DNA of 42,417 nucleotides, taken from positions 1 through 42,417 of the IMG/VR virus record IMGVR_UViG_3300041409_000037; one strand, 5' to 3'. Under the pieces are notes generated by a model that saw only the letters and a list, made by a program, of their open reading frames with translations, made no database searches and had not been told where the DNA came from. Both the position numbers and the translations under genes were made by a program. The stretch is from a virus. Below are positions 8,715 through 42,101 of the stretch, one piece after another. Positions within the stretch are counted from its first letter, which is position 1. Each line of letters starts with the position of its first letter.

Positions 8715-9494
8715 TTAGAGCAACTCCCACTTCCCCGCGTCCTGGTTGTCCAAGGTCACCTTGCCGATCACACGACGGGCGTGCGTATGGTAGACGACGA
8801 GACCCTCAGGTTTCATGAACCCGGGTACCGCGCGGCTGCCATTCTCCCGGAGGTCTCGCAGCAAGTCCCCCACGGGGAAGTCCGTGATGGGGCCCTCGTA
8901 CAGCACCGGGACCACCCCCAGGCCAGGCGTCTGCCAGCCCCCGGCCAAGCCACCATCCTCCGGGGGACAGAACATCTGTGGACGGGTGGACGGGTTGAAC
9001 AGGCTGAACCGCTTCTCAGTCAGGCCGTAGTTGCGGCCAACGCCTTGACCCCAGAACTCCCCGAAGTGCCGCCCTTCGCCAAGGTCCTTGATCAAGGTCT
9101 CGCCGTTGCGGTAGACCCACTTCGCGAAGCCCTGGTTGTCGTTGGCCAGGGTGATGATCCGGTTCCGGGACTGCGCGCCAACGAGCCACACGTAGCCGGG
9201 CTCCGGGTCATCACTGTAGATCACCTGCGACATGTCCGCCCCGGCACCCTGCCAAGACAGATCAAGCCACTCGCCGAAGTCGACCTTGCGGATGAGGATG
9301 GCCGCGTTCGTACCGTCGATCTTCTCGGTGACCACCACGTCCCGGAGCAGTCGTGGAGTCTTCGGCCACGCCACGAACTCGAATACCGGAGTCGGCTCCT
9401 GGTCTTCCTCGCGGAACTCCTCATCCGGGTCACGGGGCAGCGATGCGGCCCACATCTGGGTGTTGATACGAGAGATCAGGTTCCGAATACCCAT
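8715..9494 (-). CDS. RNA ligase (Rnl2-like nucleotidyltransferase)
   Basis: 259 aa with the ligase motif order: motif I 'TEKIDGTN' (Lys58 the expected AMP-accepting lysine), 'EFWG' near 146-149, 'RFSLFN' near 162-167, motif IV 'PEGLVVY' at 229-235 and motif V lysine at 245. It would seal 5'-phosphate and 3'-hydroxyl ends of RNA, for instance repairing tRNA cut by host defence nucleases. The ATG overlaps the upstream stop by one base. The phage also carries an unusual tRNA cluster, which makes a tRNA substrate plausible but unproven. Confidence 0.9.
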   Translation of the reverse strand: MGIRNLISRINTQMWAASLPRDPDEEFREEDQEPTPVFEFVAWPKTPRLLRDVVVTEKIDGTNAAILIRKVDFGEWLDLSWQGAGADMSQVIYSDDPEPGYVWLVGAQSRNRIITLANDNQGFAKWVYRNGETLIKDLGEGRHFGEFWGQGVGRNYGLTEKRFSLFNPSTRPQMFCPPEDGGLAGGWQTPGLGVVPVLYEGPITDFPVGDLLRDLRENGSRAVPGFMKPEGLVVYHTHARRVIGKVTLDNQDAGKWELL

Positions 9495-40993: not shown

Positions 40994-41017
40994 ACTGGCC
41001 TCCTGGTTACTAGGTTG

Positions 41018-41089
41018 CTGGCCACACAGGATTCGAACCTGTAACCCGCGCCTTAACAGGACGCTGCTCTGCCATTGAGCTAGTGACCA
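41018..41089 (-). tRNA. tRNA-Asn (GTT)
   Basis: A complete cloverleaf of 72 bases: acceptor TGGTCAC/GTGGCCA, positions 8-9 TA, D-arm GCTC-AATGGCA-GAGC, anticodon arm GCGTC-CTGTTAA-GGCGC, variable GGGTT, T-arm ACAGG-TTCGAAT-CCTGT, discriminator G. CCA is not encoded. Just upstream (41093-41112) the minus strand has another D-arm-like stretch (GTGGTAGCTCAGGTGGCA) with no matching partner arms, probably a remnant. Confidence 0.93.
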
Positions 41090-41149: not shown

Positions 41150-41220
41150 TGGTGCCACGTCAAGGAATCGAACCTCGCACAGCCCGGTTTACAGCCAGGC
41201 TTGATCCCAGATCACTTGGC
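41150..41220 (-). tRNA. tRNA-Tyr (GTA) with collapsed D-arm
   Basis: 71 bases including an encoded CCA. Acceptor GCCAAGT/ACGTGGC (one A-G mismatch), then only 14 bases (GATCTGGGATCAAG) before anticodon arm CCTGG-CTGTAAA-CCGGG, variable CTGTG, T-arm CGAGG-TTCGATT-CCTTG, discriminator A. The 14 bases fold as GATC-TGG-GATC, a 4-bp stem with a triloop, in place of a normal D-arm, and there is no separate 8-9 linker. The variable region is short, unlike the long arm of usual bacterial tRNA-Tyr. C32, U33, A37 and A38 are canonical. Confidence 0.75.
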
Positions 41221-41223
41221 AAG

Positions 41224-41255
41224 CACCCGGTAACGGCCTATGCGGTTACCGGGTG
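41224..41255. terminator. 11-bp hairpin between tRNA-Tyr and the next remnant
   Basis: 41224-41234 pairs with 41245-41255 around a 10-base loop; 4 bases upstream of the tRNA-Tyr 5' end. May be a terminator or a processing signal. Confidence 0.5.
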
Positions 41256-41264
41256 TGTTGTACA

Positions 41265-41340
41265 ACCAGTAGCGCTGGACGCGGGTCGAACCCTAGACGC
41301 CAGATACTGATTGTCGTTGACCAGAGGTACGGGCCGCTCC
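41265..41340 (-). pseudogene. tRNA-like remnant with T-loop
   Basis: The minus strand has GGGTTCGACCC at about 41283-41293, a T-loop-like element, but no 5-bp T-stem, no convincing anticodon arm and no matching acceptor. Probably a decayed tRNA; could be chance. Confidence 0.3.
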
Positions 41341-41680
41341 CACGGGCATACTTGGCGGTCTCACCCTACCTGGTCCACAGGGGGCTAAGCCGTATGCTGA
41401 TCTCGTGTACGCAAGCGTCCTCACTCGCGGCCCGTCCTCCGTTTAGACCGATCACCCGTCCAGCCGCCAATATGTCAAGGGCTGAAGAGGCCTAGCATTC
41501 AGGTGATCGGCGACCTAGCGGCCACTGGGGCCCGGCATCCTGTGCTGGCTGCCATACCGCCTGGTCAGTTAGTAAGGGTGCTCTGCCGCTGAGCTACCGT
41601 CGAGATCATCGCATCATCAGAGAAACTTGCAACCCGGAACTCGGTGCACCGAGAAGTACGGACAAGCTCTCCTAGCTCAC
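41341..41680. other. non-coding stretch in the tRNA cluster
   Basis: No supported gene on either strand. At 41580-41594 the minus strand reads GCTC-AGCGGCA-GAGC, a typical tRNA D-arm, preceded by ACGGTA, but no anticodon or T-arm follows. A TTGACA at about 41472-41477 (minus) has no good -10 at 17 bases. Short reading frames here lack ribosome sites. Confidence 0.4.
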
Positions 41681-41741
41681 TCGACAGGCAGGATTCGAAC
41701 CTGCGACCGCCCTTCGTCCTCCGATCAGCCACGACAGCCGA
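41681..41741 (-). tRNA. tRNA-like element without anticodon arm (1)
   Basis: Minus strand: acceptor TCGGCTG/CTGTCGA (one T-T mismatch), D-arm-like TCGT-(13-base loop with GTGGCTGATCGGAG type II style)-ACGA, then a 9-base linker AGGGCGGTC, then T-arm GCAGG-TTCGAAT-CCTGC. No anticodon arm is possible in this space. Same 9-base linker length and same T-arm core as the element at 42045-42101. Could be a pseudogene; the exact borders are uncertain. Confidence 0.4.
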
Positions 41742-41794
41742 TGCCTGGTACTTCCCTATAAGGGGTTCCCTGTGCGCCTACACCACGGAGGTTC

Positions 41795-41858
41795 CCAGGT
41801 CTTGCTCCTGAGCTGACAGTGGATCAGACTGTCAGGTTCTCTGAAGTGCCCCTCAGAG
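41795..41858 (-). pseudogene. degenerate tRNA-like three-hairpin array (Ile-like anticodon)
   Basis: Three hairpins follow one another on the minus strand: CTCTGA-(8)-TCAGAG (41839-41858), CTGACAGT-CTGATCC-ACTGTCAG (41813-41835; 8-bp stem, 7-base loop with GAT at 34-36) and TCAGG-AGCAAGA-CCTGG (41795-41811). The order and loop sizes mimic D, anticodon and T arms, but the T-loop lacks TTCGA and the acceptor is at most four pairs (GGTT/AACC). A tRNA-Ile (GAT) decayed or a non-tRNA structured RNA. Confidence 0.35.
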
Positions 41859-41898
41859 TAACCGGCTACACACCCCACTGAATAGGGCGGCCGGGTCG

Positions 41899-41965
41899 CA
41901 CCCCGTCAAGGAATCGAACCTCGCTACCCGGCTTTGGAGGCCAGGTTGATCCCAGATCACGAGAT
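41899..41965 (-). tRNA. tRNA-Trp (CCA) with collapsed D-arm
   Basis: 67 bases: acceptor ATCTCGT/ACGGGGT (three G-T pairs), 14 bases GATCTGGGATCAAC, anticodon arm CTGGC-CTCCAAA-GCCGG, variable GTAG, T-arm CGAGG-TTCGATT-CCTTG, discriminator G as expected for Trp. CCA is not encoded. The D region is the same GATC-TGG-GATC minimal stem as in tRNA-Tyr, and T-arm plus the next bases are identical, so the two arose by duplication. Confidence 0.72.
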
Positions 41966-42007: not shown

Positions 42008-42044
42008 CCATTTTTGCCTACACGATCGTACTCGCGCAGCTTGG

Positions 42045-42101
42045 ACACCCGACAGGATTCGAACCTGCGACCCTTGGGCTCTACCACTGAGCTACAGGTG
42101 C
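42045..42101 (-). tRNA. tRNA-like element without anticodon arm (2)
   Basis: Minus strand: acceptor GCACCTG/CGGGTGT (7 pairs, two G-T), TA at 8-9, perfect D-arm GCTC-AGTGGTA-GAGC, a 9-base linker CCAAGGGTC, T-arm GCAGG-TTCGAAT-CCTGT, then CCA directly after the acceptor. All elements of a normal tRNA are there except the anticodon arm. The short linker cannot form one. It cannot decode codons as written; possible roles are a decoy, a substrate for tRNA enzymes, or a recent pseudogene. Confidence 0.6.

Follow-up and report, generated by a model that had tools for sequence, protein, structure and literature searches.

The window, as we call the whole stretch of DNA that was analysed, is a virus record of 42.4 kb, whose genes include those for terminase, portal, capsid, tape measure, polymerase, primase, endolysin and an RNA ligase. 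A tRNA array of 1.1 kb occupies the minus strand at 41.0–42.1 kb and consists of tRNA-Asn, tRNA-Tyr, tRNA-Trp and several tRNA-like pieces (Table 1). Overall, the terminase is 31–38% identical to those of actinobacterial phages and of a few viral contigs. Since the nearest terminases (37–38% identity) stem from phages of Curtobacterium, Streptomyces and Arthrobacter, the host is likely actinobacterial. Comparison of both DNA and terminase revealed no close relative of the phage.

Table 1 Features of the tRNA array and the RNA ligase gene.
Feature	Position	Strand	Remarks
RNA ligase	8715-9494	-	PF09414
Ordinary tRNA-Asn(GUU)	41017..41089	-	array member; 61.9 bits
tRNA-Tyr(GUA), compact D-arm	41150..41220	-	GCCAAGT-GATC-TGG-GATC-AAG-CCTGG-CTGTAAA-CCGGG-CTGTG-CGAGG-TTCGATT-CCTTG-ACGTGGC-A-CCA (41220 to 41150); class I variable loop (5 nt); CCA encoded at 41150-41152
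D-arm of tRNA-Tyr, GATC-TGG-GATC	41203..41213	-	immediately 3' of acceptor nucleotide 7
Inverted repeat	41224-41255		CACCCGGTAACCGCATAGGCCGTTACCGGGTG
tRNA 5' half	41574-41610	-	CTCGACGG-TA-D-arm-A-CCCTT
tRNA 3' half	41677-41714	-	AAGGG-CGGTC-T-arm-CTGTCGAG
tRNA-Trp(CCA), compact D-arm	41899..41965	-	ATCTCGT-GATC-TGG-GATC-AAC-CTGGC-CTCCAAA-GCCGG-GTAG-CGAGG-TTCGATT-CCTTG-ACGGGGT-G (41965 to 41899); A1-U72, G73; CCA unencoded
D-arm of tRNA-Trp, GATC-TGG-GATC	41948..41958	-	
tRNA without anticodon arm	42044-42101	-	acceptor, D-arm and T-arm present; Rfam tRNA 43.7 bits

A few nucleotides (CCAAGG) replace the anticodon arm in the last tRNA of Table 1. The two tRNA halves are arranged in permuted order, the 3' half lying 5' of the 5' half, and pairing of their acceptor and anticodon stems spans a linker of about 70 nt. 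A circularly permuted tRNA was considered for these halves (41714/41604) and appears doubtful: a 7-bp acceptor and a 5-bp anticodon stem pair, but U33 is unplaceable. Their leader/trailer duplex reached only 17 to 183 of 1000 shuffles. The halves could represent either a relic or a Y-RNA-like RNA. Because the array contains these halves and the tRNA devoid of an anticodon arm, parts of it may be decaying. A group I intron within the array was discarded after an Rfam search had given no match, and no TROVE gene was found within the window. Furthermore, a strong and near-perfect inverted repeat lies immediately upstream of tRNA-Tyr. The RNA ligase possibly serves the repair of cut tRNAs.

Sequence and fold of tRNA-Tyr and tRNA-Trp

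Reading of the sequences confirmed the unusual D-region originally predicted for both tRNAs: the spacer between acceptor and anticodon stem measures 14 nt, composed of GATC-TGG-GATC and AAG (Tyr) or AAC (Trp), and nucleotides 8 and 9 are missing. The D-arm consists of a 4-bp stem and a TGG loop, which retains G18G19, and the anticodon stems can be extended to 7 bp (AGCCTGG/CCGGGCT in Tyr, ACCTGGC/GCCGGGT in Trp). Both genes display the features of elongator tRNAs, namely a 7-bp acceptor, a 5-bp T-stem with a TTCRANN loop and a 7-nt anticodon loop with U33. The claim that the acceptors pair well needs qualification as to one mismatch in Tyr (A5.G68) and two G.U pairs in Trp. The discriminators suit the anticodons, with A73 in Tyr and G73 in Trp; the latter and the encoded CCA of Tyr were correctly predicted, and Trp itself lacks an encoded CCA. 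With respect to bacterial tRNATrp, the CCA anticodon, G73 and A1-U72 are present and nucleotide 9 is absent. With respect to bacterial tRNATyr, GUA, A73 and G1-C72 are present and the long variable arm is absent. Owing to the A5.G68 mismatch and the missing long variable arm, Tyr is less certain as a functional tRNA.

ARAGORN in its metazoan-mitochondrial mode returned both tRNAs with the predicted ends, whereas its bacterial mode missed Tyr and called Trp with different ends, acceptor and D-stem. Dinucleotide shuffling of the window, repeated 200 times, never produced a cloverleaf with the 14-nt short-D layout. The unconstrained MFE structure of both RNAs is a rod and not a cloverleaf (−29.1 for Tyr and −26.1 for Trp).

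In agreement with the duplication proposed for the pair, the D-arm (11 nt) and the T-arm (17 nt) are identical in Tyr and Trp over their full length, including the G.U pair in CGAGG/CCTTG. Elsewhere, 13 loci hold several short-D tRNAs apiece, and within them the arms differ from one tRNA to the next. As the short-D Tyr tRNAs of other phages have quite different D- and T-arms, a duplication must be local. Judged from these sequences, local duplication or gene conversion would be the simplest reading, one tRNA probably having been copied from the other and then altered at anticodon and acceptor.

A recurrent compact D-arm class in phages

Viral contigs were scanned for GATC-N3-5-GATC followed by a T-arm, which unveiled many contigs with the same layout, including a number of Trp tRNAs that combine GATC-NGG-GATC with G73. 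Two further viral scans admitted other D-stems, and pooling resulted in 110 distinct short-D tRNAs with 15 anticodons. We define the class by a connector of 0–2 nt, a 4-bp D-stem, a loop of 3–5 nt with GG and a spacer of up to 17 nt; Tyr and Trp of the window belong to it. D-stems found in the class include GATC/GATC, GGTC/GACC, GTTC/GAAC, GCTC/GAGC, GGCC/GGCC, CCGG/CCGG and CCTC/GAGG, combined mainly with NGG or NGGT loops. The layout recurs in many unrelated phages, predominantly among Trp, Tyr and Met(CAU) tRNAs.

Alignment of 15 short-D Trp/Tyr tRNAs, those of other phages included, showed the D-stem cells to be 100% paired; at each of the four D pairs both positions vary, a pattern of compensatory change. 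Since most members of this alignment were selected by D pairing, a test free of such selection matters more. For this control, viral Trp/Tyr tRNAs were fetched by anticodon loop and T-arm alone. Among the matches listed, 24 of 33 cloverleafs with a spacer of 13–16 nt contained a 4-bp hairpin with a GG loop, whereas 2.2 were expected by chance and 2000 shuffles never gave more than 8. The D-arm had been described as collapsed in the sense known from mitochondria. This description finds no support: because the D-stem is intact, with covariation seen among phages, and GG is retained in the loop, these are tRNAs with a compact D-arm and not D-armless tRNAs.

Isotype bias, identity bases and compensation

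In the sample drawn with no D-arm criterion, and among the matches listed, short-D tRNAs accounted for 10/100 Trp, 10/36 class I Tyr, 6/106 CAU and 9/1121 other tRNAs, corresponding to an enrichment of Trp and Tyr with a Fisher p of 6e-14. By these counts, the two isotypes noted at the outset are the two well-sampled ones with the highest short-D share. Synthetases that make no core contacts were considered as the cause of the bias and rejected as only a partial fit: for Asn, Lys, Val and Thr no bacterial core determinants are listed (PMC9976931), yet among the matches listed no short-D cases occurred for them.

The discriminators in the pool of 110 tRNAs are highly uniform, with G73 in Trp (31/31), A73 in Tyr (13/13), U73 in Cys (12/13) and U73 in Gly (7/7); smaller groups carry C73 (His, 2/2), U (Thr, 3/3) and A (Ala, 3/3). 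Known bacterial determinants (PMC9976931) match the discriminators found for Trp, Tyr, Cys, Gly, His and Ala. CCA is often encoded in the class, for short-D Trp in seven out of ten cases.

The loss in the D-region appears together with additional pairing next to the anticodon stem. A 26:44 pair is possible in 64% of the short-D tRNAs versus 25% of 2227 canonical tRNAs, and both extra anticodon-stem pairs are possible in 39% versus 11%. Trp and CAU members show this trade clearly; Tyr members are not enriched (26:44 in 31%). Some of the short-D CAU tRNAs exhibit an initiator-like mismatch or weak pair at 1-72, and those with a mismatch (loci L115, L159, L158, L151 and others), some of them with GGG/CCC anticodon stems, are likely phage-encoded initiator tRNAs. 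Phage tRNATyr(GUA) with no long variable arm is common in its own right (viral loci L448–L567), and 40 of 45 good class I Tyr tRNAs in viral contigs carry A73. Among the 13 pooled short-D Tyr tRNAs, 4 have C1-G72, the archaeal/eukaryotic type, and 9 have G1-C72.

Occurrence and annotation

Short-D tRNAs are also present in cultured, named phages. Acinetobacter phage YMC13/03/R2096 carries a good example, itself without annotation (CCTC-TGG-GAGG, CCA encoded), in an array between Thr and Met genes that are annotated, and Aeromonas phage LAh_6 an unannotated short-D tRNA-Trp. The place corresponding to the LAh_6 match in Aeromonas phage 4_4572 (MK813943 17169-17210), similar to the Trp gene of the window, is labelled tRNA-Ser. 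In Streptomyces phage GiJojo (PP725410) a short-D tRNA that begins near 9118, with a predicted 5' end at AGGGTAC, is annotated as tRNA-Trp with other ends. Consistent with these records, ARAGORN in bacterial mode found the correct 5' end for 20/44 short-D Trp/Tyr tRNAs and for 63/110 of all short-D tRNAs, compared to 194/200 canonical ones. Standard annotation thus often misses compact D-arm tRNAs, which constitutes a blind spot.

The layout is absent from the 26 readable chromosomal tRNATrp genes of Actinomycetota, all of which possess a spacer of 19–20 nt. A Trp tRNA pattern was matched by 221 of 246 genomes; the short-D Trp pattern gave 12 matches in the 246 genomes, not more than its control, and no tRNA is among these matches. 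Short-D Trp tRNAs do occur on a few MAG contigs, sometimes with a normal tRNATrp elsewhere in the genome. In two MAG contigs an RtcB RNA ligase adjoins short-D tRNAs (L255:2929-4152 and L271:2657-3862). A general link to RtcB was dismissed, as the gene occurs in only 3/32 records.

Reduced D-arms were originally thought to be unfamiliar in phage tRNAs. This holds insofar as the openly searchable literature gave no description of a compact D-arm class in phages. A restriction to this phage finds no support, given the wide recurrence of the layout.

Comparison with known tRNAs and tRNA-like RNAs

The trade of a short connector and small D-loop for a longer anticodon stem is known from tRNAPyl and mitochondrial tRNASer(UCN) (PMC7609411; rules cited in PMC4394434). 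As in the phage class, tRNAPyl of Methanomethylophilus alvus has no gap between acceptor and D-stem (0 nt), a 4-nt D-loop and a 6-bp anticodon stem, and in Methanosarcina barkeri the connector measures 1 nt and the D-loop 5 nt (PMC7609411). Unlike tRNAPyl, the phage tRNAs keep G18G19, a canonical T-loop, sense anticodons and a variable loop of 4–5 nt. For the window tRNAs an identity as tRNAPyl was rejected, their anticodons being GUA and CCA rather than CUA and their variable loops 4–5 nt rather than 3 nt long; no PylRS was found among the scanned window proteins. tRNASec, characterised by a long acceptor branch, a 6-bp D-stem and a long variable arm, was excluded as well (Rfam tRNA-Sec 24.6 bits, below the gathering threshold of 47; variable loop of 4 nt, no long variable arm). 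Type I mitochondrial tRNASer(UCN) shares the short acceptor/D connector, the small G18G19 D-loop, the longer anticodon stem and the short variable loop (PMC7609411), whereas the phage tRNAs are phage-borne and Trp, Tyr or Met(CAU) instead of Ser. Mitochondrial tRNAs that retain a D-arm have a spacer of 16–20 nt (PMC4394434), versus 14 nt in the window. The compact D-arm tRNAs of phages thus resemble tRNAPyl and mitochondrial tRNASer(UCN) and belong to neither. With D-armless metazoan mitochondrial tRNAs they share the shortened acceptor-to-anticodon spacer and detection by the same ARAGORN mode; those, however, have no D-stem, which in the phage tRNAs is present and covarying. Ordinary phage tRNAs have the location in arrays, the canonical T-arm, the anticodon arm and the identity bases in common with the class and differ in the spacer (18–21 nt versus 14–16 nt), and in the class the 8-14 and 15-48 layers are impossible.

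Permuted tRNA modules, consisting of a 3' half, a linker of 2–15 nt and a 5' half with the break at nucleotides 28/29, were observed at other phage loci (L467:379, L565:3925, L381:3362, L431:4917, L152:5640, L015:709, L311:2739; L626, L627, L628), several with paired leader and trailer. They also occur, unannotated, in the hit regions of Xanthomonas phage Olaya and Caulobacter phage CcrColossus. Orphan half pairs in other phage loci were complementary in 15/23 cases. Rfam gave only tRNA matches for the modules. Since TROVE (Ro60-like) genes are found in 9/15 records with permuted modules, permuted tRNA genes were rejected in favour of Y-RNA-like mimics, which we presume to be comparable to the YrlA type of Y-RNA-like tRNA mimics; the modules are probably phage Y RNAs.

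Alternative explanations

A misread D-arm, with a standard D-arm hidden in an alternative fold, would be suggested by the canonical fold that ARAGORN draws for Trp. This fold amounts to −13.0 kcal/mol compared to −24.5 kcal/mol for the short-D fold, i.e. it is 11.5 kcal/mol weaker and has a broken acceptor, whereas for Tyr the default bacterial mode offers no fold at all and most other class members have no scoring canonical alternative; we regard a misreading as extremely improbable. Decaying relics, meaning disused genes whose D-arm is partly lost, would be in line with the neighbouring fragments in the array (42044-42101 and the 41714/41604 halves) and with the acceptor mismatch of Tyr. The original prediction had argued that the genes do not look decayed, and the survey supports this: layout, pairing and discriminators are conserved in many unrelated phages and across 15 anticodons, and several short-D tRNAs, such as 7/10 Trp, encode CCA. 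Decay would not be expected to leave identity signals so well preserved, and we consider relics quite unlikely.

Similarly doubtful are tRNA mimics with no part in translation, whether they act as decoys against host defences that cut tRNAs or as regulatory or protein-binding RNAs. The RNA ligase of the phage belongs to an enzyme type that mends cut tRNAs, some short-D loci adjoin RtcB, and Y-RNA-like mimics are likely in other phage arrays; a decoy, however, would need neither the agreement of discriminator and anticodon nor the frequent CCA, and RtcB is confined to three of the 32 short-D records. Published work on phage tRNAs evading tRNA-targeting defences points to a further explanation, by which the compact D-arm would have arisen as protection from host nucleases or toxins gripping the elbow or the D-arm, the tRNAs being otherwise normal. 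The concentration in few isotypes would be expected if particular tRNAs are attacked; no nuclease preferring the D-arms of Trp, Tyr and Met(CAU) was identified in the analysis. Although unlikely, it would refine and not exclude the reading as translation tRNAs.

Proposed function and significance

Based on sequence and pairing, both window genes are probably phage tRNAs for translation with a recurrent compact architecture. Its layout would comprise a 7-bp acceptor, a connector of 0–1 nt, a 4-bp D-stem with a G18G19 loop of 3–4 nt and about 3 nt partly pairing onto the anticodon stem; an ordinary anticodon loop, a variable loop of small size and a T-arm of canonical form complete it. With nucleotides 8-9 and the A14/R15 side of the D-loop gone, the 8-14 and 15-48 layers would be lost, G18G19 could still dock into the T-loop, and the longer anticodon stem probably restores the distance from the anticodon to the CCA end. 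During infection, the tRNAs would be processed and used by host RNase P, CCA enzyme, TrpRS or TyrRS, EF-Tu and the ribosome. A9 is a Trp determinant in bacteria (PMC9976931), and the absence of nucleotide 9 from short-D Trp tRNAs counts against use in translation. So do, for the window Tyr, the A5.G68 mismatch and the lack of a long variable arm such as bacterial tRNATyr has, and for both window RNAs the rod-shaped MFE structure.

As a more far-reaching proposal, which we regard as speculative and rather improbable, phages may have repeatedly evolved a compact, compensated tRNA form, mainly for Trp, Tyr (with no long variable arm) and Met(CAU), which escapes a host factor gripping the core and is still charged and decoded, a bacterial-virus parallel of compact mitochondrial tRNAs. 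Canonical tRNAs build their core with nucleotides 8-9 and a full D-loop, and the phage class lacks these with its identity signals intact. If these tRNAs are functional, bacterial ribosomes and synthetases would accept a mitochondria-like core, and the class would offer engineers a ready-made collection of small natural tRNAs.
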